Shown piece after piece: positions 2,027 through 29,800 of a stretch of 30,470 nt of DNA (position 1 is its first letter; the number at the start of each line of letters is the position of its first letter). Source of the DNA: a virus. The translations under genes were made by a program, and so were the position numbers. The stretch covers positions 1 to 30,470 of IMG/VR virus record IMGVR_UViG_3300030085_000899. The stretch is one strand, 5' to 3'. The notes under the pieces are model-generated. The model did no database searches. It was not told the DNA's origin and saw nothing but the letters and a program-made list of their open reading frames with translations.

Positions 2027-2209
2027 TCATTCAGGGTGCTGTGGGTCAGTTGGTAGACAGTTCAACAACTGGTTGTAGGTGGCACTGGCGCTGACCTTGT
2101 AATGGTAAGCATACTCATTGGTTCTCCCCATAGGACAACCCATCATCATGTCCATCAGAAAACGGATCTGTGAGGCGCTCAGGGGAACGTTGGCAGTGTG
2201 GTCAATCAT
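2027..2209 (-). CDS. Small hypothetical protein, 60 aa
   Basis: The ATG (2209-2207) overlaps the TGA of the methyltransferase gene in an ATGA junction, so it looks translationally coupled to it. The protein begins MIDHTANVPLSASQIRFLMD and contains a Met-rich MDMMMGCPMGR segment, then a Tyr-rich EYAYHYKVSASATYNQ segment. It is too short for a recognisable domain. Its position suggests it is the last gene of the 5457-to-2027 string, but nothing in it points to a role in DNA modification. Confidence 0.78.
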   Translation of the reverse strand: MIDHTANVPLSASQIRFLMDMMMGCPMGRTNEYAYHYKVSASATYNQLLNCLPTDPQHPE

Positions 2210-3072
2210 AAGTGGTTCAGGACGCTTGTAGACGCTTGTGGAGGGGTCTCAGGCACTGCATCATAGTTCGTGATGTATAGATGCTGGACCTTTGCACCCT
2301 CATGATCCTTATTTTTACCAAATCGCTGAGCATATGTAAAGTCCTTTGTCATGATATTAAAATCTTTGTACTGCTCACGATAGAACTCATTGTCACTGTG
2401 TACTATCATCCATTTGTATGGTGCATCCTTCAACCTACTAACCATTCTACTGTGTACATCATCCCCTCCATCACCACTGTGATACCCAAGGCGATCAAGA
2501 TAAGGAGGATCAAGGAATACGAAGTCATCTGCAGTTGCCTCATTAAGTGCTAGTTCAAAGTCACCATGTAATAGTGTAGATTTATTCAGCATCGATTGAT
2601 ATGCACCACTCGTGCTGTGCTCTAGATTACATGCAAACTTCTTGTAATGTCCGAATGGTACATTGAATTCACCTTTTGCATTGTATCGCTCCATACCAGA
2701 GAAACACAACTGTCGTACAATCACATATGATATTGCTCTACTCCAATAGTTCTGCATCTCAGGATCAAACTCTTGATTGATGTCATTACGAGCATCATAA
2801 AACTTCTCTTCTAGTTCATCATGATCCATTGCCTTCATTCTCTGTGTCTCTTGACATAGACGACGCAATCCTTGATTAGATGATACTTGCCTGTATAGAT
2901 TAATCACATCCCAGTTAGTATCACATAGCACTGCTGGTTTACCAACATGAAAAGACACCGCAGCACCGCCACAGAACGGTTCCACGATGCGATTGAATTC
3001 TTTGGGCATCATGCGTGAGATGATCTTCAACTCACGCGACTTGCCACCTTGATACTTAACTAGCGGTTTCAT
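2206..3072 (-). CDS. dam: D12-class (Dam-like) DNA N6-adenine methyltransferase
   Basis: This 288-residue protein is a SAM-dependent adenine methyltransferase of the D12 class, the class of E. coli and T4 Dam and of DpnM. The SAM-binding KYQGGK motif lies at residues 6-11 and EPFCGG at 31-36. The conserved RYNAKGEFNVPFG segment lies near 129-141, and the catalytic DPPY at 188-191. I choose ATG 3072 because it places KYQGGK at the family's usual position. A GTG 45 bases upstream gives an N-terminal extension with no family match. The gene overlaps the end of the upstream candidate nuclease by 17 bases. The recognition site cannot be read from sequence, and GATC is only the common choice for this class. 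It likely protects phage DNA from the neighbouring nuclease or from host enzymes. Confidence 0.93.
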   Translation of the reverse strand: MKPLVKYQGGKSRELKIISRMMPKEFNRIVEPFCGGAAVSFHVGKPAVLCDTNWDVINLYRQVSSNQGLRRLCQETQRMKAMDHDELEEKFYDARNDINQEFDPEMQNYWSRAISYVIVRQLCFSGMERYNAKGEFNVPFGHYKKFACNLEHSTSGAYQSMLNKSTLLHGDFELALNEATADDFVFLDPPYLDRLGYHSGDGGDDVHSRMVSRLKDAPYKWMIVHSDNEFYREQYKDFNIMTKDFTYAQRFGKNKDHEGAKVQHLYITNYDAVPETPPQASTSVLNHL

Positions 3073-3709
3073 AGATCTTGCTGATGTCAAATCCTTCTTC
3101 AAGGAATACTTTCTCACATTCTACCACAGCACGCTCTTGTCTGCGACGCTCAAGATCAGTGAAGTTGATGTCATAACGATTGTACAGATATTCTTCCGTG
3201 TTGTACACTCGTACACCCTTCTCATTGAGGTAGTGATACACATTCATGCGCGGATCACCAGCATCATACTCATCCTTGAGGATAATATAGCGCACCTCTT
3301 TACCTGGGTACTGTTCTTTGAGCGCAGCAATGTACCACTCATATTCAGAGAGTTCACTATCTTCACTCTTAGTGTTGTTGAATGACTTGCCTTTGCTGTT
3401 GATAGCAGTTACCATGTCCTCATCAACAACAAGAATATCAACATGATGATGTTTACGTTTCTTGTTGGGATTACGAAGAGGAATAGGATGCTCTTGTGTC
3501 ACATTGACGTGCTTCTCACTGTCACGAATTGCCTTGAAGATCTCATCTTGGAAATAGTTTCCACCTTTGATGTTGATGTTCGCGTGTGCAATGCGAGCGA
3601 GTGAGCGTAGAAGTTCGTACTTGTTCAATGTGCTTTGTTTACCTATGGTTATCATAGCGGGGTTGTCACCCTGTTGCACTGGTAGAGTGTACACTTGATC
3701 AACTGTCAC
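3056..3709 (-). CDS. Candidate restriction-like (PD-(D/E)XK-type) nuclease, 217 aa
   Basis: The layout resembles a PD-(D/E)XK fold. A helix with a Glu at residue 56 (NYFQDEIFKAI) is followed by basic KKRKHHH, then the strand VDILVV with Asp91, then VTAINSKGKSF with Lys106. The usual acidic residue of (D/E)xK is replaced by Asn104. A further strand (VRYIILKDEYD) follows. The gene overlaps the adenine methyltransferase, the usual arrangement of a type II restriction-modification pair. The annotated GTG start (3709) overlaps the upstream small gene by 11 bases. ATG 3655 (MITIGKQSTLNKYELLRS) is a reasonable alternative. The coding call is firm and the nuclease call is inference. It could instead be an inactive relative or a nuclease acting on host DNA. 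Confidence 0.7.
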   Translation of the reverse strand: MTVDQVYTLPVQQGDNPAMITIGKQSTLNKYELLRSLARIAHANINIKGGNYFQDEIFKAIRDSEKHVNVTQEHPIPLRNPNKKRKHHHVDILVVDEDMVTAINSKGKSFNNTKSEDSELSEYEWYIAALKEQYPGKEVRYIILKDEYDAGDPRMNVYHYLNEKGVRVYNTEEYLYNRYDINFTDLERRRQERAVVECEKVFLEEGFDISKIYETAS

Positions 3710-3857
3710 CGAAGATAGGGATGATGTTAGTTTTTGCGTGTTGAGTTTTGTTTATGTGCTGCTCCCACAGAGCGGCATCTTCCAAATTGTAAAAGATCGC
3801 TTCTTGGCGCGACGTGCCTTTCTTCTTGTTCCTCATCCACACAACTGCGTACTTCAT
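3699..3857 (-). CDS. Very small basic hypothetical protein, 52 aa
   Basis: ATG 3857-3855 opens a frame that ends with TGA at 3701-3699. The protein begins MKYAVVWMRNKKKGTSRQEA, continues IFYNLEDAALWEQHI, and ends IIPIFGDS. A short strand, a basic turn and an amphipathic helix are plausible, which is typical of small real phage proteins. It lies out of phase inside the tail of the 103-residue gene and overlaps the next start by 11 bases. The protein-like sequence and its fit in the string support it. The competing frame over the same bases is Arg/Ser/Gln-rich and looks less like a folded protein. Function is unknown. Confidence 0.75.
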   Translation of the reverse strand: MKYAVVWMRNKKKGTSRQEAIFYNLEDAALWEQHINKTQHAKTNIIPIFGDS

Positions 3858-4038
3858 GCCAAAAACAGGGATAAACTAAAATGTTAACATAGTGACGACC
3901 CCACCGTGAGTTTGCACTCTTGGGCAATGGGATGTCTTTGAAGCAAATAGTAATGTACTCTTCGCTTATGAAAGAAATATAACCTGTAACATGCCCATAT
4001 GTCACAGGTTGTAGCAATTCAAAATCAATCGACTTCAT
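3727..4038 (-). CDS. Hypothetical protein, 103 aa, with an out-of-phase overlapping tail
   Basis: The start ATG 4038-4036 (MKSIDFELLQPVTYGHVTGY) overlaps the end of the preceding gene by 14 bases. The frame extends to 4098 but would then overlap 74 bases of that gene. Residues 1-60 look like a compact beta-rich domain (GYISFISEEYITICFKDI, then SRWGRHYVNILVY). Residues 61-103 are hydrophilic and lie entirely over the 52-residue gene in another frame. That tail is probably unselected or recently gained. I do not recognise the family. Confidence 0.78.
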   Translation of the reverse strand: MKSIDFELLQPVTYGHVTGYISFISEEYITICFKDIPLPKSANSRWGRHYVNILVYPCFWHEVRSCVDEEQEERHVAPRSDLLQFGRCRSVGAAHKQNSTRKN

Positions 4039-4733: not shown

Positions 4734-5003
4734 TTATGATTGAGGTCCCCAACCATCATTCTCGGGTACAACATCGTCATCGTCTACACGATCAACGGAT
4801 GCAATGTCACAAACTGGCACCTCATGCTGTCCACCAATCAAATACCATGGCATAATCTGTCCATGGTATTCTGGATGTGCTTGGAAGTCTTCAGGATAGA
4901 CACGATCACCGATGTACTTTATCTCGCTTTCTGGAATAGCGTGATCGCGTAACATTGCTTGTAGTTGCAAGTGCGTCAACTCTGGTTGCGTGGGTACTTT
5001 CAT
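4734..5003 (-). CDS. Hypothetical acidic protein, 89 aa
   Basis: I choose ATG 5003-5001 (MKVPTQPELTHLQLQAMLRD) because GGAGAA stands 3-8 bases upstream. The frame opens at 5045, but that extension has no ribosome binding site and overlaps the previous gene further. The N-terminal 35 residues look helical (THLQLQAMLRDHAIPESEI). An aromatic middle follows (DRVYPEDF, GQIMPWYLIGG), and the C-terminal tail is acidic (DRVDDDDVVPENDGWGPQS). Even with the later start it overlaps the DUF4385 gene by 98 bases in another frame. Function is unknown. Confidence 0.82.
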   Translation of the reverse strand: MKVPTQPELTHLQLQAMLRDHAIPESEIKYIGDRVYPEDFQAHPEYHGQIMPWYLIGGQHEVPVCDIASVDRVDDDDVVPENDGWGPQS

Positions 5004-5457
5004 TAGTTCTCCATTCTTTGCGTTGTCGTTGATATTCTGCGTCATATGCTACTTTATCCCGAATATTCTTGAATATTTTAGCAGCGGCAGACTTTTCACA
5101 CTGTAGTGCATCTGCCTCCTGAGGTCTAACTTCACCAGTTTCAGTGTATTTCCTGCCGTCATGATGATTTGCATATCTACGGGCGCGAGTAAATCCCATT
5201 TCAAGAAATTTTCGTGCCATGTCCATACCAATGAAGTCTCCAGACTTCTTATAGTTACAGTACATGGAGTAAATCTTATTAGCAGATTTGCTAGCAGCAG
5301 TCTCATTCACAAACCTCCAATGAGCACAAATGTCGTTAGTATAAGGGCGCACCAATAGAACCCCTTGCTCCCCTCTTCCGATCCGATAGAGCGGGCGAGT
5401 GTTAGGGTCTGTGAAATCAAGTTCCTCATAAGGGAGTTCATAGCAAAATTCGAGCAT
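4906..5457 (-). CDS. DUF4385 family protein, 183 aa
   Basis: The protein matches what I recall of DUF4385, a family of unknown function found in phages and bacteria. YRIGRGEQGVLLVRPY (residues 24-39) and ICAHWRF (43-49) are followed by KSANKIYSMYCNYKKSGDF and then MARKFLEMGFTRARRYANH (80-98). The family-like region ends near residue 150 (EYQRQRKEWR). Residues 151-183 are a Thr/Arg/Ser-rich tail lying over the start of the next gene. A possible sigma70 promoter directly precedes the gene, so it may head the accessory string down to 2027. The family has no established activity. Confidence 0.9.
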   Translation of the reverse strand: MLEFCYELPYEELDFTDPNTRPLYRIGRGEQGVLLVRPYTNDICAHWRFVNETAASKSANKIYSMYCNYKKSGDFIGMDMARKFLEMGFTRARRYANHHDGRKYTETGEVRPQEADALQCEKSAAAKIFKNIRDKVAYDAEYQRQRKEWRTNESTHATRVDALATTSNVTRSRYSRKRDKVHR

Positions 5458-14897: not shown

Positions 14898-17800
14898 TTA
14901 GAGTTCTACGAGCCACCAACCTTGTAGATCGGTTGGAATTTGATTTGCATTTGGATCACCTTGTGCATCAGTACCACCTACGAATACCAAACCGAAAGCG
15001 GCGTTTCTAGTCTGTACAATCATTTCACCACTATCCCACGCTGTAACATTTGGTGCAGAAGAACCAACGTTTGCCTTTGTACCAGTGCTGTCACCTTGAA
15101 TTGGTGTTGCACTAGTGCCATCCTTCTTAGCACGAAGAATGAAATTAGCATTGTAGTTAAGGTTACCACTAATATCTATAAACCTAATCATATCGCCCGT
15201 TTGAGCACCATCACTAGCAGAAGGTAGATAGACAATCATGTTACCACTTGAGGAAGTGTTAATTAGATAATTGCCATTCGATTGTAGTGGATTAGCAACA
15301 ACCTGTCCAAATCCAGTAGAAGATTGCTCAAGATATGTCCAGCGACGACCACCATTAGCATTAAAGTATCTAGAAATACCGAAGGCATCAATAGAACCAT
15401 CTTGATACATCTGGAAGTCTCTTGGACCAGCTGCCAGTGTAGATCCAGCAGAACCAATGTTGTCGATATGGAAGATGCTGGTTGTAGCAGATTGTGTCTC
15501 AAGGATTTGACCCTTATGATAGAAGGATCCACCCATGTCAACAGAACCGTCATTCTTGTCAACTTCAAATACAACCTCATCAGTACATACGCCATTTTCT
15601 TGGCAACTATCATACTTAACTCTTAGGTTGCCATGAATATCTGCTCTACCCTTGAGGTATAGACCTGCTCTACCTGTGATAGGATCAAGAATTGCACCGT
15701 CACCTGGGTGACCATCATCGTTAGCAACAGCAAAGATAAGTGTCTTACTATCTGTACCATACATTCTCATGTTGCCACTGACAACGTTGAGATCATCATG
15801 GATAGTTAACTTACCACCGCCAAAGTATCTTGCGATATTTGCTTCTGGTTGGTTGTTATCAAGAGAACTTCTGATGCTCTTAGGCATCTTGACACCGAAG
15901 GAAGCATCAACGTTACCGTCAATACTATCAGGTAAGAAGAATTCAGATCCAATTCTGATAATCTGATCGTAGTCAAGTTTCTGAGCAACTAGGTTACCAT
16001 TAACAAGTTTGAGGATAATTCTATCAGGACTTGTGTTTGGTGAAGGTGCCTGAGTTCTACCAGTTGCAGGTAGTGCCTCAAGTAGTTTAGTTGTTCTGCT
16101 ATCCTTAAGGATCTTAACTACAACAGCGCCAGCAGTGAATGTCTGTGCAGTTGTACTTTCTTGAGCACGACCGCCGCTTGGATATTGTGCATTGATGCTG
16201 TATGGTAGTTGTGGACCATTGTTACCAGCAGTATCGATGTATGGATCTGCAGTAACTCTAATGATCTCTGCCTTGGTTGTGCCTTCAATAATAGCAACTA
16301 GGTCACCTTTCTGGAAACCAGAGATGCTTCCAACTGTGAATGCCTCATTACCATTACCCTGAGTTTGACCATCACTATGGTTAATAGTTGTAGTGGTAGA
16401 AGGACCATTTGCTTGTGTTGCTTCAGGTGCATAGGTGTATACAAATACATCATCTGTTACAGGGTGTGCAACAGCAGTGCTACCATATACAGACTGTGCC
16501 CAGACCCAACCCCATTCGTTACCAAGTTCTGTGTTACCATTACAGGTATTAACTTCAAACGTGGTAAAGTCTCTGTTTGTTAGAGTTAGTTTGCTATCAT
16601 CAGATGTGTCTTGATCAACATCGAAGATGTTATTAACAATTGGTGTTGCACCACATCCACCCGATAGATTAATTGAACCATAGATGTTAAGAACACTATC
16701 TTGAATAGTCTCGTCACCAATGATGATGTCACCAGTAACACTATCAACAACAAATACATCCTTTTCAGTTGCAGTATCACAACCGCTAGTAACAATCAGT
16801 TTCTTAGCAACTTCATCTAGTGCAGTTCCAACTCTGACAAATTCACCCTGATTAAAGTCACCATCATTATTGGTGTCTTCACGATCAACGATGACATAAT
16901 CACCAACCTTAAGTTGACCACCAAACTGAGATAGGTAGAAGTTATCAACAGGACCAGTAGCATCAATTGCTTGAGTTGTCCAAGTAGCATCGAAGGAGAT
17001 ATTTGCCTTCCAAATGTTGGTTGTATCTGGATGTGTCTCTAAGTAATCTTTAGCAGGAGATAGTTGCTGCAACTTATACTTGGTAAACGAACCAAGTGGA
17101 TGACGCTTAACCTTAATGTAGTAAGGAGCAGATTCTGCACCTTGTAGACCATCTTCAGTAATTCTGACAAGTTCAGGATACTGCTCAGTAGCACCAGATC
17201 CAGTAATAACGGTGTCAATTAATACATAGTCACCTGCTTGGAAGTAAGGAGTTGGTTTGTACTTGAGTGGTACATAGAACTCATCACCAGTGATTGCTGG
17301 TAGATCAGCACCTTCAGCACCTGCTCCAGTCTTACTTTGTTGGAATACTGCGTCACCCCAAGTAGCAGAACCACCAGTATCAATTCTGTTATAACCATCA
17401 GCGATGTTCTGAACAGTTGGATTATTGAAGTCAGCAACTGTAATTCTTAGAACATTAACTAGGTCAATGTTGCTATTGAATGTGTTGTTACCAAGTTCAC
17501 CACTAGCATGAGCGAAGTCATCAGTACCAAGTTGTGCTCTATTTCCTTCAAATGAGTAGGAAGCAAGACCACCACAGAGTTTGATGTCAGCATTGAAACG
17601 TGCATTAGCATCAACAATAAAGTTATTTCTAACCGTTGTGCTACCACCCTGACCACCAATCTTAAGTAGAGATGCATTAGTAGCGAAGTTTAGTGTCTGT
17701 GTCTGAGTGGTGAAGAAGTTAACAACACCTGCTTCAGATCTTAGTGTAACAACCTGAGTTGGATCAGCTTCATTACCACCAATAATCTTATTAGCACCAA

Positions 17801-20800
17801 TTAGAACATCACCAGCAACACTGAATTGCTTAGTACCAACCAACGTGTAAGAGTTGGAGGAGTTGTTATTGTATGCACCACCAAGTTGGATCTTAGAAAT
17901 ATTAGCAGCATCGTCACCAATATCACCAAGGAAGATGTTAGAGTGGTCAGATGCATTACCTAGTCTGAAGAATGTATCTCCAGTTCTTTCGTTACCAACT
18001 CTAATGTCTTCTACATTAGCAGCAAGATTTAGTCTACCTTCAAATGTGGTGTCAGTTACAAGGTTGAATGTGCCAGAAGTCTGAGAAGTTCTGATCTCAG
18101 CAGTTGTGCCATCATCACCATTGACTTCGATGTCATGCTCGAAGCGAGCATCATCAGTAAATCTAGATGTGCCATCAACAACCAGTGCTCTATCAAGTAG
18201 AGAATTAGGTACGTTGATACCAACACGACCACCATTTGTAGTAGCAACACGTAGGACTGCCTCATCGTTAGGAGCAGCACTGTCACCACCAACTAGTAGA
18301 GCGTTGTCTTGTGCTGTCTTATCACGATCAGCGAAGTTGGTGTGATCGAGGAAGTCAGCAGTTGTTCTACCACTAATGAATGTAGTACCAACAACGTCTA
18401 GGTTTGCACGAGGTGTTGTCTCGATGCTTGTCCATGCATTTTCAAGCGCATCATGTGGAGCACGAGCAACAGTGTTAATACCAAGTTTGAAGTCACCAAT
18501 GTTGGTTGTCTCGGTTCTGAGTGCTTCAGCACCAATGACACCAAGTTCTTTCCATACAGAGTTAGAGAATTCAATCTTAGGTTCTACACCAGCACTAGCA
18601 CCGTTAATAATGTCTGTCCAATTGTATGTGATAGCAGAAACGCTATCAACCAATTGAATGTGAACATAGTTGTTGCTCTCGCTGAATACATCTCCCTGTG
18701 GAGAAACAATGTTCCAAGTTCCACTTACAGCAGCGTTGTTGTAGAAATCTACAAGTCTAATCTGAGAAGTATTTGTAATACCAAGTGCAGAGTTAAGAAC
18801 TCCTACACCTGACTGTTCCCAAATAATCTTAGCAATATTTGTGCCATCAAAGATGACTTGCTTAATAGAGTTATTACCAACCTGAGTATATCCATCAGCA
18901 AAGATCCAAGCAACAGATCCTGTGAGATTAGTTGCTTCACCTTTGAATAGGATGTCGCCAGCAGAAGGTAGAACACCACCAAAGTCAGTTAGTTGTAATG
19001 TATCAAGTCTTGTGCCACCTGCAGAATATAGAGGAGTGTTGTTTGGTGTCATGTTAGAACCAAACGCACCAATAGCATGTGTGAAGAACTTATATCCTCT
19101 TGCTCTTGGATATCTGATTGGAGTGATTTCAAATACAGCAGACTTAACTTTGTTCTTACTGAGAGTGATGTCACCAGCAGTAGGAGGAACAAATGCTGTT
19201 CTGTCTAGTCTTTCATCTTGCTCAATAACACCAAGTTTGTTCTCAGTGCTCTCGACAATAGAACGAACAATCAGGGCATCCTTGACCTGCTTGAAGTCAC
19301 CGTCTTGTACAGCAATGATAACAGGAGATTCAAATGTATTTGGTAGAGATCCGTCACCACCAACAACTGTGATATTCTGGTTGAATGTTACAGGTGTATC
19401 GAAGGTAGTAACGAGACCGCCAATTACGTCATCCTCGTCTCCATCATCTGCAAGAACTGCAGCATCGATGAATGTCTCTTCACCAGTAATAGCGTTAATT
19501 CTTCTATTACCAATGTAGAGATCACCCTGGGAGTTAATACCAGTGTAGAAGACGATACCAGCGTCTTGTTTCTTACTTTGTGCATAGAAGTCCTCTTCAG
19601 GTGTTAGGACGACTTCCTGACGTGCTGGGAGACCAGTGGAGTAGTTACCAGGACCGAAACCAAGGTATTCAAACGTGTGGTTACCAGCACGAGCGATAGA
19701 TGGTCTTCTAAGTTCAATGTAATACTTCTGATCTGATAGAACTGTGCTATCACCAGCAATTGGAATACGACGATCTTCAGAACCAGAGGTTGCGTTACCA
19801 TCCTGTGCTTTAATTTGGTTGTCACCAGTGTAAGTATTGAGGATGAATGCAGGGTTGTTAAGTAGATCTTCTACAAGTTCTCTAGTTACAGAGTTCTTAA
19901 AGTCGTTAACTGTAACAAGACCATGTACATAGTTGTCAGCAGCAGAGAATGTCTGTGGTGGGTCAATTAGGTTAGCATAGTAATCTTTCTCTGCCTGAGT
20001 TGTACCAGAGTTCTTGAACCAAAGAGGATCGTTTCTGAAGTTTAGTGGATATAGTTTGCTGACTGGTTGAGAGAACTTGAACTTCTTGAAGTTGTTAGTT
20101 ACACCAGCGCCAGTTGGGAATGGAGAGACGTTACCACGGAGAGCAGTGATATAGTAAATACCATCTTGCTGACCTGCAATTCTGCGTTGTAGTGTCTCAT
20201 ATCCGAAGATATAGAATGTATCTTCGACAACACCAGCATCCTCAACACTATCAACGTAGTATTCAACACCAGCGTCATCTTGAATACGATCACCAGGGGT
20301 GATAGTATAAACGTTAGCGCCGTTTTGCTTGTAAAAATACTCAGGATAATTTTTCTTGATTAGTGTTTTTAGAGGTAGCGATTTGCCCATATCCTGGTCT
20401 TCCAGCATATCAGCAAATACATTGCCTTGAGTAAATCTGGTATTGACATACTCACTATACTCTAGAACACCACCACGGATTGCTTTGATGATTAGGTAAT
20501 GGTCACCACCAACATTGAAGTAACCATGAATGTTACAGTTACCAGAGGAATTACCAGCAAATGTAGCAGCATTTGCATCAAATTGTCCGTTCTGAGTTTT
20601 ATTAGCAACAAATGCACCACCTTGAGGAGCAGTGATCTTAACTGTGGTTAGGATCTCATTGCTTAGACCAGAGAAATCAGTTGTGTTGATTGTGTGGTCA
20701 TAAACTGTCAATTCTAGATACTTGATCGATGCATCTAGAGTATCCTCTACATAACGACCAGACTGAATTGTTGCTTGAATACCAGAGGAGAACTTAGCGT

Positions 20801-23800
20801 ATGCACGCTTATCAACAGCAAGATATGGATCATACTGCTTATCAACGTCAAGACTGTTATCAATAAAGTCTTGAGTTGTGAAACCAATACGCTCACCAAT
20901 TTGTGCTGGGTTCTCGAAACGAGCGCCATATACTGTGCCAGTTACAGGTTTCAGTACAATCTTCTGAGGTACAAGTTTACGGGTGTCGTCAGTTCTTGTC
21001 TTAAGAACGAAACCATTGATAGGATCTCTAGCGTTCTCAAGATACTTAGGAATGACAAAACGGATCTTGTAGGTTCTCTCATCTGCCTCACGAGTATCAT
21101 CTAGACGCTCATACCACATGTCAGTGGATCTTGGGCGATCAGCATAATCAGTTTGATTAATACGCCAGAAGATGCTCTCTTTCTTAACAGCGTCAGACTG
21201 TCCAGTAACTTCATCCTTACACTGGATGTACCACTTACCTGTAGTAGATACAGCATCAGTAAATGCTGGATCAAACTTGAATGGAGAGCGACGCTTGTTA
21301 GCGAAGACTTGGAACTCATTCGACGTTACTTGGAATGTAACTGGGTTAGCATTAGCAATAGCGTTAGCATGAGTTAAGTGAAGAGTAATCTTCTTAGGAG
21401 ATACATATCTCGCATAGAACTCAGTTCTAGGATTAATTCTACCGAAGTTTGCATCGTTAGGATCAGTAACAGCAATGGTAGAATTATTTGCCTGACCAGA
21501 TCCGACTAGAGGTAGTACACCGCCTTCGATTGTTCTAATGAATACTCTCTGTGGTGTAGTAGATGCAGATGGTAAGTCAAATACGTGAGCAACTTCAGTT
21601 TGAATTTCAGTTGCGGTAGCAGTTACAGACTTATAAGTATGGAGATCATACTTGTCATCTAGGACGAACTGATAGAGATCGATCTCAACATCTTGATCAA
21701 TAGCATCAGTCTCAGATGCATAGATGTAGATACCTGCACATGCATTCTCTTTGGAAGTTGCAAGCATCAACTTCGTCTGGTCTACACCATTGAAGAAGTT
21801 AGTACCACTATAATCTTCACCGCCTGCTAGTGTGCTTCTACCAGGAGCGATGACATAGTATGTTCTGTTAGTCTCGAAACCATTAGGTAGTCTGACGAGA
21901 CGCTTATCAACATCGACATACTTACCAGTAACTGGGTCAAAGCGTGGACGTGGAACCAATCTGACTGGTGTACCAGTTTCAAAGTTGTGTGGGTTAGAAG
22001 GACCAGTACCAGTAGTATCAACTGTGAATACAGTTGCTCTGGATGCAAGTTGAGTGGTATCAACTGTCTGTTCCTGTCTAACAACAGAACCAAGACCACT
22101 ATCAATAATGGTAGTAATGACACCAATTAGAGTTTCGATTGCATCAGCAGTACCAGAACACTCTCTGTAAGTAGGAGATGTAAGTGTATCTGCAATGACA
22201 TCAGGTTGAGCAGAAGCAGGACCTACAGTTACAGTAGTAGGTAGTGTGTCTGCCCATACACCCTTGGCATATTCAAAGTGTAGATCAACAGAACTACTTG
22301 TCTGCTGTGCGTTAACAGTTAGACCATTGTCAAGTCTAGAGTTCTCAACACCAATCTCAATTACACTGTTGCTGACAATTCTCTTGACAAATGCACCCTC
22401 AGGAATGTTAGTATAAGTTGGTACAGCGTAAGATTGTAGAACTCCATCTACATATGCAGGAGTATTAGGATCGGAAGCACCTCTTGGATTGAGATACTCA
22501 ACAACACTCATACCAATGACAATGCCACGAGTATCGTTAACATCAATTAGAGCAGAGTTTGCAGTAGTAGAGCAGTTGTATCCAACAACATCGAAGTTAC
22601 GCATTGCTGCGGTTGCCAACTGACCGACATATTTCCATGCGTCAGTTGTCTCTGTTCTTTCACCGTCGATGTATGTTAGACTGTTACCAACGTAGTATGC
22701 TTCACCAGCTTGGATGCTGTTGAGGTTACCGCCAAGTCTAAGGTCATTAACAACAGCGTCAACAATGTAGGAGACATCACGGAAGCACTTCGATGCTTCG
22801 TTGTTGATTGTGAAGTCACCAGTATTAATAGGAGGTAGACCAGCAAGTGTGCCACCACCAATTGCATCAGTAAGAATATCAAATAGTGTTTCAATTGTGG
22901 CACGAACGTTAGCACAATCCCAGAGACCGTTAGAGAGTGGTGGTAGATTGTCTAGGTTACCAGCGTTTAGAGCATCACATACAATGTCAATCAAGGAGTT
23001 GACAGTTGCTAGAACATCAGAGCAGTTACCGTCAGCATATGCAGAAGGTTGATATGCTCTTGCAGCACGAGGATAGGAGTGAGTAGTTACATTCTGATCC
23101 TTAGTGCAAGTAAATGTTAGACTTTCTGTCTTGATCTTGATGCTTCTACCAGCAGATAGACCATGAGCAGCACTGGTTGTGACAACAACGTCACCAGATG
23201 CAGGATCATAGGTTGCGGTAGATACATTGTGCTCAACTAGTGGAGATGTTCCAACGTTGATTGCAAAACTATGTGTTGTAATGTTGCTGATAGCAATGTT
23301 CTGACCAGCGTAAGGATCAATACCAGCACGAGGATAAGACTTCGATGCAGTGTAGTTATCCATTGCACACTTGAATACAATCGAGTTGTCGTCAAGTGAT
23401 ACCTGAGCACCAGTAGATAGTCCATGAGCAGTACCGAAGTACAATGTCATTAGACCAGTTGTAGCATCGTATGTTGCGTTCGTTGGTGTGATCTGAGCAC
23501 CGTTAAGAACATTGACAGAGTTAGCAGCAGCACTCACAAATCTATGATCATAATCACCACCAGATACAATTGCACCAGGCAATGCCTTGACAAATGTATG
23601 TGGATAGACGTGAGTAGATGTGCCAACGTTGAATGTAATAGTATTGGTAGTTACTGCTGTTACGTTAACTGCAGTATCATATGCAGGATCAGCAGGAGCA
23701 CCAGTTGTTCTAGTAGCAGTTAGTGTACCTACGCCACCATCATTACCGATTGCCTGAATGATGATACCCATAAGTGTATCAACTGCAGCAACAGCAGAAC

Positions 23801-26800
23801 CACAACGTGGTAGTAGTTCGCCTGCATCCCAGTCCTCTACAATAGTATTGTCGATCTTCTGAGTGAGAGTATTAGCAGCATCTGTAGTTACAGTTTCATT
23901 CTTGATAACCTGCATTGCGATGTTCTTCGCCTCAAGGAATACCTTGGCAGCTTCATCACGCTCAGCATCGATGAATGTTTCTACAGTAGTACCATCTCTG
24001 TAATCATAGTTGGTGACATATATCTTAGCAGCATCATAAGTCTTGGAGTTTCCACCAAACTTAACGTCCCACATGACTTCCTTAAGGACGCTAACAACGT
24101 CATCCTTACAATCTTGTGCAGTGTTACCAGTAGAAGGAGTGTAAGTAGGATATGCAGCAAGCATACGGAGATATGCTTCTTCTGCAATGAAGTCAACATT
24201 CTCTAGAACCATGTCATGTGCATCACACTCAATGTCACCAACAATAGTTGGATCACCAATCTGATCTAGAGTAATGGTTAGGTCACGGTCATAGTATTGG
24301 TTGTTCAATGCACGCTGCATTAGATCTTCAGCACGCTTGAATGCAGTGATCGAAGGACCGACTTCGTTATCTACACCGTTAAGAATTAGAGAATTACCAT
24401 TGAAGTATTCCTTAGTTGCAGCGATAGTATACTCGTTACCACCAAACCAAACGTCTTGTGCAACAGCGTCAACAATATGTCCAATATCTCTACGGCACTT
24501 AGCTTCACCAGTGATGAATACGCCAGGATTATCAGGAGAGTTCCAGATACCACCAGAAATATTACCATTAGTAATTGCATCAGTAGCGATAAGACCTAGA
24601 GTTTCGATAGCAGACTGAACATCAGAACATGCTGCTGGATCTTGTCTGTCAACAGGAGTAGGAGTTACTTCTACAACAGCATCGGTAGCAGCACTTACAA
24701 ATGTGTGAGGATAGTTACCACCAGATCTTACAGCGCCTGCAGTTGCAGATACAAATGTATGTACAGAGAGTGGACTGTACATGACAGCATCAGTAGCAGC
24801 ACTGACGAATGTATGTGCAGATGTATCGGATGATGTACCTACATTAACAGTGATAGTGGTAGCAGTCTTGGCAGTAATGCTGATAGACTTACCAGCATAT
24901 GGATCAGTTCCAGGACGTGGATATGTATGCTGAGTAGCATTATTATCCAGAGCACATGTGAATGTGAAAGAATTATCCTTAAGAACAATACCCTCACCAA
25001 CATCTAGACCATGGTTTGCACCAAGGGTGATCTCCATGAGACCAGTTACTGGGTCATATGTTGCACCAGATGGAGTGAAAGTGCGGTTAGAATCTACAGG
25101 ACCAACGTTGATTGTAATTGTGTTAGCAGTTACAGCAGTGATAGGTACAGCAGTATCATATACTCTATCTTGCTTCTTCTTGATACCGTTAGTAGTTGCA
25201 CTAACAAATGTGTGTGCAGATGTATCAGAAGAACTACCAACCTGAACTCTAAATCTATCAGCAGTTACATCATAGATTTTGATCCACTTACCAGCGAAAG
25301 GATCAGTTCCTGCGCGTGGGTATGAATGCTGGGTCTGGTTGTTATCAAGAGCACATGTAAATGTAACGGAGTTATTATCAAACTTAACCAAATCTCCATT
25401 CTTCCAACCATGATTTGGAACTGTGCAAGTCATTACACCAGTTACAGGTTCATAGTCAGCAGTAGTGATTGTATCCTGATCAATTAGAGTTCTAGGATAT
25501 GAATGCTGGGTCTGGTTGTTATCCTTAGCACAAGTAAATGTGAGTGATTCGTCTACAAGTTTGATGCTCTCACCAACAACTAGAGAATGATTACCAATTG
25601 TAAGTTCTACATCACCAGTAGAAGGTTCGTAATCAGCAGCAGTAACGTTGAATGGAACAATAAGTGATGTGCCAACGTTAACATCAAATGTATCTGCAGT
25701 TACGTTAGATACTACCATTGCAGTATCGAAGTTGCCATCACCTTGACGTGGATATGTCTTCTGAGAGACATTACCGTCCATGTCACAAGTGAAAGTAAAG
25801 GAGTTATCCTTAAACTTGACTTGATCACCATTGCTTAGACCGTGACCAACAATTGTAATTGTAGAAACACCAGTTGCAGGATCGTATGTTGCATTAGTTG
25901 GTGTACCTACAGCAGTAAAGGCACCACTATAGTTTGCGTTACCTTCAGTGACAGTTAGATCTTTATAATACAGACCATTGTATACTGCCTTTCTCATCTC
26001 TGCGATAGCAGTATTGAATGCAGTTACGCTCTCTGCTTCCTCACCTACAAGACCATTGCTTAGTGGTGTAGTAGCATCAGTGAAATATTGTCTGGTAAAT
26101 TCTTTGGTGTGTCTGTTACCCGCTGTGAACATGTCAACAGAGACAGCATCGATGAAGTAACCGATGTCACGAGCACACTTGCTTTCGCCAGGACCCATGC
26201 CATAACCGTAGTTAACCTCGGTAGGCATAGAGCTGAGGTTACCAGCAGTAAATACATCCTGAACAATAGTGTTGAGGTTATCAATTGCTGCCTGTACATC
26301 AGAGCAGAGGAAGTCCTGAGCATTGAACTGATTTTCAGTGTTGCCAGCAAATGTAATCGCATTAGTAGCAGCACTAACAAATGTGTGTGCAGACTGTGGT
26401 AGATGGTTAACAGCATTAGCTGTAGCACTTACAAATGTATGTGCAGATGTGTCAGAAGATGTACCTACGTTGACTGTAATTGTTGTTCCAGTAACAGCAG
26501 TGATAGGAATAGATCTACCAGCAAAAGGATCTGTTCCAGGACGTGGATATGTATGCTGTGTTTGGTTATTGTCTAGAGCACAAGTGAAGGTGAAGGAGTT
26601 ATCGTCAAGAGTAATACCCTCTCCTACGCTCAATGTATGAGCACCAATCGTGATCTCCATGAGACCAGTTACTGGGTCATAGGTAGCATTAGTTGGACTA
26701 AACTCGACGTTAGGACCAGATGCACCAACGTTACAAGTGATAGTGTCAGCAGTTACAGCATCGATAGCAATATACTTACCACCCCATGTTACTGTAGAAG

Positions 26801-29800
26801 ATTGACCAGGAACAGTGTGTTGTGTGTTATTGCCGTCCATTGCACAAGTAAATGTGATGGAGTTATCAGCAATAGCAATACGATCACCAACACTTAAATC
26901 ATGGTTGGCAATAGAGAATACACATACACCAGTTGCAGGATCATATGCGACATTGTGTGGAGTAAACTGTCTTGTTACCTGTCCATAGTCAGAACCAGGA
27001 GCATTGTCAGCAGTGATGGTAAGATCCATCACATATAGCTTGTTAGTAATCGCCTGCTTCATCATCTCTGCTGCTTTAGCAAATGCAGTCTTGGATGGAC
27101 CTTCTTCTCCTAGAAGACCATCAGAGATTTGAGTGCTGACATTCTCGAAGTATTCTGCACAGAACCTCCAAGTATATACATTACCTCTCTTGAATAGGTC
27201 AAGTGAAACAGCATCAACAAAGTAACCGATATCTCTACGGCACTTAGTTTCACCAGGACCAGCAATGTAAGATGTCTCAGCAGGTAGACCATTGAGGTTA
27301 CCAGCAGCAATCTGTGTAGTAATAATATTTGTTAGCGTGTCAATAGCAGACTGTACGTCATCACAAGCGTTAGTGCTTGTTCTAGGAACGTCTAGACCAC
27401 CGCCACCATATTGTGCAGGACCTTCAGTAACTGTAGTATCAGTAATGCTGAGTTGGTTAGAAACAGCAGATCCCATGAGATCTCTTGCTTGGTTGAATGC
27501 TTCAATGGATGCAGTCTCTTCACCTTGTAGACCACCAGAGATCCAGTTCTGTCCAGTAGCATCAAAGTATTTGGTAATGAACTTACGGGAATACTTGTTA
27601 CCACCAACAAATAGGTCAAGTGATACAGCATCAATAAAGATACCGATATCACGCTTACACTTAGGACCAAAGGTGTTACCATTGTTTCCATCATAGTTTG
27701 GATACAATGCAAGCATATTTGCATATGCTGTGTTGACAATCTCAGTTCTATTCTGTTGGATCAAACGATAACCATCTGCGTATCTAGAACGCTCATCGGT
27801 TTGCTGATCACCAGGGATCCAGAAGTCAGGATGTCCAATGGCAATCTGTGCTAGACCAGCATCAACAATCTGATCTTTGTTCTGTTGAATGAGACGGTAT
27901 GCATCAGCATATCTAGAACCATCATCGGTCTGATTATCACCAGGAATATAGAAATCAGGGTGATTTAGTGGGATAGAAGCAAGTGCCTTGTCTCTAATCT
28001 CAGAGGAGTTACGACGGATTAGACGGAATGCATCAGCAAGTCTAGACTGTTCATTAGTTTGGGTGTCACCAGGAATGTAGAAGTCAGGATGATATACACT
28101 TACCTCAGCAAGTGCTGCGTCGAGGATGAACTCTCTATTGGCGACAATTCTGTTACGTGCATCCTTATTTCTACCAGCAGGATCTTGAATACCAGCAGGA
28201 TCATAAGTTACACCGTTAGTTGTTAGTCCTGCTTCTTCTGCTGCAGAACCAGTATATCCTTTACCAGCAATTAGTGAAGGATACTTGTTAGTATTACCAT
28301 TGAAGAAAATACTATTAGGATCAGGATCGTAGATGTCTGCCTTTACATCGAGCAAGTTAGCAATTGCTTTCTTACATAGATCTTTTGCTCTATTGAATGC
28401 AAAGATAGATGGATTTTCCTCACCTACGAGACCATTGCTTAGTGGTTGACCAGCGCCATCGAAGTATCTCTTAGTTGCATCGATGATGTTTGCGTTACCA
28501 CCATCTCTAAGATCTTCTGCAACAGCATCAACGATTAGACCGATATCACGCTTACACTTACCATCATTACCTGCGCCCTGAATTGCACTGAGACCGAAGG
28601 TCTCAACCATCTGATCATATGCTTCATTGACAATCTGTTGTCTGTTGTCAAGGATCAGGTTACGTGCATCAAAGTATCTGTTACCAGCAGGATTTAGACC
28701 AGGGTTGACATAAGAAATGTTCTGAAGTCTAGGATACTTCTCTAGAATATAACCGAAGACTTCCTCTTGGATCATGCGACGGTTGCTTTCAATCAAGTTA
28801 GCAGCATCAGCATAGACACTGTTAACAACACCGCCAGTTGGGTTTAGGATAGAACCCTTAGCAAGATACTTGACAAAACCTGTTGGTTCTAGTTCTGCAG
28901 AGAAGAACTCGTCTGTACCAGATGCTGGATCTAGTTTAACATATAGTCTTTCATTAGACTTAGCACCCAATCTGAAACCATCAATGGTAGCAGCAGGACG
29001 ATCAGTAGGTAGAATAATATCATCACTACCTAAGAACAACTTGGTATAGTTATTAGTTCCTTGTAGCGAACCTTGAATATCAATCGTATAGTAATTAATC
29101 CTCTTGGTATTGACAGCACTATCAATAACTTGCTTAGGAGGAATAATGTCAGTAATGTAACCACCCTTATCTTGGTTAAAGGCGAAACCTTTGAAACCAA
29201 TAGCATGTAGAGATGTGTTACCAAAGTTGGAGTTAGAGTTGGTGATCGACATATCACCACCACTTTCCATTAGGAAGTGATCAGCGAAACCAACAGCGAA
29301 GATCGAAACGTTCTGGATGAATGCATCTTCAGATGCACGAACGTGGAAGTTTCTCCACTCGTCTTTCCAATAACTATCACCCTTGGTGTGGTAAGGAACA
29401 GTAGCAAATGCGTCTACTAGTGATGCTCTGTTCCAAGTGTTAGAATACTCATCATATCGGATGAATGCTCTATCATCTTTCTGTAGCGAAACACCCGTGT
29501 ACTGAGCGATAACCATCGACTTAAAGCCTGTTGCCTTAAGACCGTTTGCCCAGATACCACAAATACCCCAAGTAGATCTGATCGATACGTTGAAGACATA
29601 TGGAGATGCAGATTCTACACTATCAACTTCTGCTAGTGTCTGTGCGTTAGCACCTAATGTAGGTTGAGTAACAGTCTCACCATTAGATAGACCGCTACCG
29701 ATAGCACTTACAACGAACGGAACTTGATATGTAAACTTACGAGGATCGTTCTGATCAATCGATACGATTGGGAAGATACCCTCAAGAACATCATCAATTT

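Follow-up and report, generated by a model that had tools for sequence, protein, structure and literature searches.

A Dam-family methylase gene and an exchangeable nuclease-fold gene as a putative restriction-modification pair in a T4-like marine Synechococcus phage

The DNA analysed here (IMG/VR record IMGVR_UViG_3300030085_000899, positions 1 to 30,470; hereafter the window, 30,470 nucleotides in all) is a fragment of a T4-like marine Synechococcus phage, with S-WAM2 as its best DNA match and other T4-like phages of Synechococcus among the remaining matches. About half of the window is occupied by an ORF of 4872 aa on the minus strand (14898-29516) with matches to families of short tail fibre and virion structural proteins (phrog_4527, 3920 bits). 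After it come more large ORFs of tail-fibre-like type (980, 461 and 1274 aa). A DUF4385 protein, whose function is not described, is encoded on the same strand at 4906-5457 (PF14328, E=1.5e-51; phrog_5325). Downstream of the very large tail-fibre gene and the DUF4385 gene, and also on the minus strand, lie the two genes of this study. They had been reported in a first-pass annotation as ORFs at 2206..3117 (303 aa) and 3056..3709 (217 aa), and both are present, the latter with a GTG start at 3709. The overlap reported between them is also present, but its length of 62 nt had been counted from a GTG at 3117. Methylase homologues start at the position matching the ATG at 3072 (MKPLVKYQGGK...), which is likely the true start as judged from these alignments; the methylase would then be 288 aa long (2206..3072) and the overlap probably 17 nt (3056..3072). 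In the window and twelve relatives, the two genes overlap by up to 17 nt or are separated by up to 34 nt, overlaps of 4 nt or 8 nt being common, and this tight spacing suggests translational coupling.

The downstream gene had been called a D12 adenine methyltransferase, and this is confirmed. The protein matches Pfam PF02086 (E=5e-44, 151.3 bits against a cut-off of 22 bits) and NCBIfam TIGR00571 'dam' (184.6 bits against a curated cut-off of 114.85), and PADLOC assigns it to MTase_II. The N-terminal GGK and EPFxGG motifs and the catalytic DPPY are present, and the catalytic and SAM motifs are conserved: residues K6, G9-K11, E31-F33, G35/G36 and D188-P-P-Y191 are invariant among 11 aligned sequences. 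Among solved structures, the nearest is that of DpnM, the methylase of DpnII (2dpm, E=2e-32). The stretch RYNxxGxFNVPFGxYKK, conserved in this methylase lineage, is common to E. coli Dam and in part to DpnM; as a target-recognition stretch it is suggestive, and only suggestive, of GATC methylation. Deduced from the methylase family alone, the target is most likely GATC.

For the 217-aa protein, a PD-(D/E)XK-like layout had been proposed from the sequence, and a non-nuclease fold had been set beforehand as the finding that would count against it. The prediction did not bear out such a fold: the AlphaFold model (pLDDT 82.6, from an eight-row alignment) is a PD-(D/E)XK core, in which the elements H30-63, E69-76, E88-95, E99-104, H116-133 and E138-145 follow the order alpha-beta-beta-beta-alpha-beta. 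The best fold matches in the PDB are mostly PD-(D/E)XK enzymes (top Z 9.2 over 121 residues), including Card1, Can2, EndoMS/NucS, McrC and the R2 endonuclease, and among them are the restriction enzymes BspD6I, BstEII, FokI, SdaI, EcoO109I and Bse634I. Single Z values are middling, and it is the consistency of the list that argues for a nuclease fold. A search of a viral-structure library with the same model placed a 205-aa protein of Salmonella phage STML-198 at rank 2 (TM 0.52/0.54) and a 187-aa protein of Synechococcus phage S-CAM8 at rank 30. Both of these, matched by organism and length, are direct upstream neighbours of homologous Dam genes, and the agreement is strong because the search was blind to gene neighbourhood. 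We describe the 217-aa product as a protein of predicted PD-(D/E)XK fold with putative cleavage activity.

By sequence, the protein belongs to no described family, and profile searches gave no match above a curated cut-off to any characterised restriction enzyme. The best weak profile matches of its family, which we call type A, are all to models of type II restriction enzymes and all below the curated cut-offs: UpaP162 in 4 of 8 members (best E 0.0045), BanI in 3 of 8 (0.015) and MTES_1575 in 2 of 8 (0.0063). Neither MutH nor Sau3AI is among the profile or PDB structure matches listed for it, although the listing alone is no proof of absence. PDB sequence searches returned chance matches only. 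Relatives in 50,697 phage records were absent even at E=10; with the diverged relative L031 as query, there were none in plasmids and one chance-level match in phages. Two short peptide patterns for each of type A and type B (the family found in most related loci, see below) recovered no relatives from a bacterial and archaeal genome collection, where distant ones are still possible. Viral contigs were the only source of type A relatives, with identities of 94-99, 82-88, about 60 and 46-50%, and in each relative whose contig extends far enough the type A gene is followed by the methylase gene.

A linked nuclease had been regarded as not the usual pattern for a phage Dam gene, and here the first-pass annotation does not hold, since within this Dam lineage linkage is usual. 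In the best 80 Dam loci in viral contigs, not all of which are independent because some are near-copy contigs, a nuclease lies directly upstream of Dam in 55 (48 of type B/D and 7 of type A) and downstream in some others, while several of the others end before the upstream gene. In two loci at first recorded without an upstream nuclease (L027 and L035), one of type B lies downstream instead. Other upstream neighbours, or none, are seen in a sizeable minority of the 80. Halogenase-like or 2OG oxygenase-like neighbours, with no recognised nuclease at the upstream position, were seen in nine loci (L105, L107, L109, L110, L113, L114, L116, L121 and L124), and Dam loci with such neighbours may be true orphans. 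In two long contigs (L058 and L059, 2497-2973), Dam is preceded by a 158-aa HNH endonuclease-like protein, possibly a further nuclease type at this position. Relatives preserve the pair down to identities of 46% for the nuclease and 42% for the methylase, and the adjacency of the two genes is therefore no chance arrangement; type A and Dam occur together in four divergent lineages spanning 46-100% identity.

The nuclease gene is exchanged while its partner stays. Upstream of homologous methylases stand nucleases of different families: type A in the window, type B/D in most loci and type C in T4-like phages of Klebsiella and Salmonella. The type of nuclease is discordant with the methylase tree, where at least four changes, all on well-supported branches, are needed to account for type A. 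In three phage pairs the methylases are 75-98% identical and the flanks alike, while exactly the nuclease gene has been replaced. L031 (type A) and L029 (type B) have methylases of 98% identity, and their DNA is 93% identical on the upstream side and 89% on the downstream side; the one block that differs is the nuclease gene. Likewise, between L032 (type B) and L034 (type D) only the nuclease gene is replaced between similar flanks. In the comparison of the window with S-WAM2, similarity ends at 3079 and returns at 3699, with flanks of 74-80% identity (2263-3079 and 3699-3862); the intervening block, 3080..3698 on the minus strand by the blastn boundaries, shows no DNA similarity to S-WAM2, whose slot holds a type B nuclease of another sequence family than the type A of the window. 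The nuclease gene is thus a swap slot beside a constant methylase. The whole pair also moves, because the Klebsiella and Salmonella pairs sit elsewhere in the genome, near rIIA/rIIB and topoisomerase.

The active site of type A departs from the canonical D...(D/E)xK triad. In eight aligned sequences, D91, N104-S-K106, E116/D117 and E56 are all invariant, and N104 occupies the (D/E) position in 8 of 8. Because NxK replaces (D/E)xK, activity of type A is not guaranteed; judging from the alignment, catalysis may need another acidic residue or may be lost. The candidates are E116 and D117, with which the helix after NSK begins, and E56, on the first helix. Enzymes of the Cfr10I/Bse634I type have an acidic residue supplied by the following helix, and by analogy E116/D117 or E56 could stand in for the missing one. 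Type B keeps D...ExK in 48 of 48 aligned copies, and its model likewise has a PD-(D/E)XK fold; an hhalign comparison of type A with type B was not significant (probability 0.7%), though D91 pairs with D79 and NSK with ESK.

Since Asn invariably occupies the acidic position, there is some room, though we consider it improbable, for type A being a relative of a former restriction enzyme, either catalytically dead or DNA-binding, that serves as a regulator or targeting partner, with Dam alone guarding the phage from host restriction; solitary methylases are indeed the common pattern among phages (PMC4176335). However, the catalytic Asp, the Lys, the downstream E/D and the surrounding residues are invariant, and the type B proteins, which occupy the same slot, retain the full motif. 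Lost catalysis would moreover be expected to relax the site, but dN/dS is 0.04-0.16 in the nuclease gene and, outside the overlap, 0.13-0.24 in the methylase gene (small counts in the closest pairs in both cases), and both genes are under purifying selection.

We consider it probable that the overlapping genes constitute a type II-like restriction-modification pair of the phage, in which the nuclease, whose activity, site and target we infer, is exchangeable. A pair of this kind had been proposed in the first-pass annotation, and the proposal is supported by the conservation of the pair and by the exact nuclease swaps beside a conserved Dam, which together strongly support a functional nuclease-methylase unit. 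The overlap of the genes and their linkage across divergent phages correspond to the linked-gene arrangement of a type II restriction-modification system. In such a system, the Dam-type enzyme would mark the phage's own DNA by adenine methylation, with GATC as the most likely site to judge from the enzyme's family, and the upstream PD-(D/E)XK-fold protein, presumed to be an active nuclease recognising the same site, would cut DNA that lacks the mark. The DNA cut would be the host chromosome, if unmethylated, and/or that of competing phages, and the choice between the two depends on GATC methylation of the host. Phage DNA would already be methylated on leaving the previous cell and would thus be safe on entry. 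The nuclease gene sits in its exchangeable slot; related phages retain the methylase and flanks and differ in the nuclease.

A partner for nicking or repair is another conceivable role for a protein of this fold. MutH has the same superfamily fold and works at GATC together with Dam, and the mismatch endonuclease NucS/EndoMS is among the structure matches (Z 7.9-8.5), so the 217-aa protein could act at hemimethylated or unmethylated GATC and guide mismatch repair or packaging, with Dam giving the mark. We regard this as quite unlikely, as such repair requires MutS/MutL, none of which was noticed beside the pair, and a repair nuclease is not expected to be swapped repeatedly for other families while Dam stays. 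Least likely of all is a modification-dependent or non-specific nuclease that degrades host DNA by another rule (for example, by cutting methylated host DNA) beside an incidental Dam: T4-like phages do degrade host DNA, and the PD-(D/E)XK domains of McrC, Can2 and Card1 are among the structure matches, but overlapping or tight spacing to the methylase is seen in nearly all relatives examined, including enterobacterial T4-like phages with the pair at another genome position, and a nuclease directed at m6A would cut the phage's own DNA.

Base composition was considered for the restriction-modification reading as well. GATC occurs repeatedly in the window, as had been pointed out for positions 150 and 242, and 202 occurrences were counted. 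This number exceeds that in dinucleotide shuffles (120.8 +/- 10.2), yet it equals the window's own trinucleotide expectation (1.03x), and the excess therefore carries no signal. Avoidance of GATC was sought in the window (1.03), S-WAM2 (0.91) and S-RSM4 (0.93) and was found in none of the three. GATC composition thus gives no support for or against GATC as a restriction target. As a separate observation, CCGG is absent from the window, S-WAM2 and S-RSM4 (0 seen versus 11, 28 and 37 expected), AGCT and GGCC are under-represented in the same three sequences, and GTAC is also low, most so in S-WAM2 (0.09); this suggests avoidance of host restriction sites.

More tentatively, the pair may be one instance of a 'restriction cartridge' in marine T4-like phages, in which a constant Dam is combined with nucleases of different families that would cut the same Dam-protected site, and in which the exchange of one nuclease for another perhaps serves to evade inhibitors produced by hosts or rival phages. 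The nuclease of the window would then have a new, N-x-K version of the active site. Whether or not that wider idea holds, the nuclease-methylase pair recurs in marine cyanophage-like viruses and has been hidden by the 'hypothetical' annotation of the nucleases, and the exact gene swap is a natural experiment on the turnover of nucleases but not of methylases. If the pair is active, phage Dam genes seen as 'protective' become half of a weapon, and there is a ready test of how lytic Synechococcus phages tell their own DNA from that of the host or a rival. We found no description of a nuclease-Dam pair in cyanophages in the open-licence literature, and an earlier report elsewhere is possible.

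Complete restriction-modification systems are rare in phages, one survey counting nine in 831 genomes versus 143 solitary methylases (PMC4176335), and in a survey of 22,673 gut phages most type II systems were without a nuclease (PMC10711547). The orphan Dams of phages such as T4 and ACG-2014f resemble the methylase of the window in being Dam-family enzymes of T4-like phages; the ACG-2014f Dam is, however, distant (27% identity), and the gene upstream of it encodes a hypothetical protein of 433 aa, with no small overlapping ORF there. The Klebsiella phages KP179 and KP182, Salmonella phage STML-198 and Synechococcus phages S-WAM2 and S-CAM8 share with the window the gene order, the methylase family and an upstream PD-(D/E)XK fold or motif, although their upstream proteins belong to other families (types B and C) with an intact D...(D/E)xK; these pairs are mostly deposited as a 'hypothetical protein' and a methylase. 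GATC systems of the DpnII/MboI type are similar in having a linked nuclease, and their methylase DpnM is the closest solved structure, whereas the nucleases described here show no sequence match to a known GATC restriction enzyme and several families occupy the slot. The nearest functional parallel is CviAI of chlorella virus PBCV-1, which carries the restriction-modification systems CviAI (GATC) and CviAII (CATG); M.CviAI makes G-m6A-TC, and the virus packages its restriction enzymes into the particle (PMC7248222). As proposed for the window, a lytic virus of a photosynthetic host carries an adenine methylase together with a restriction enzyme; PBCV-1 is, however, a eukaryotic virus.
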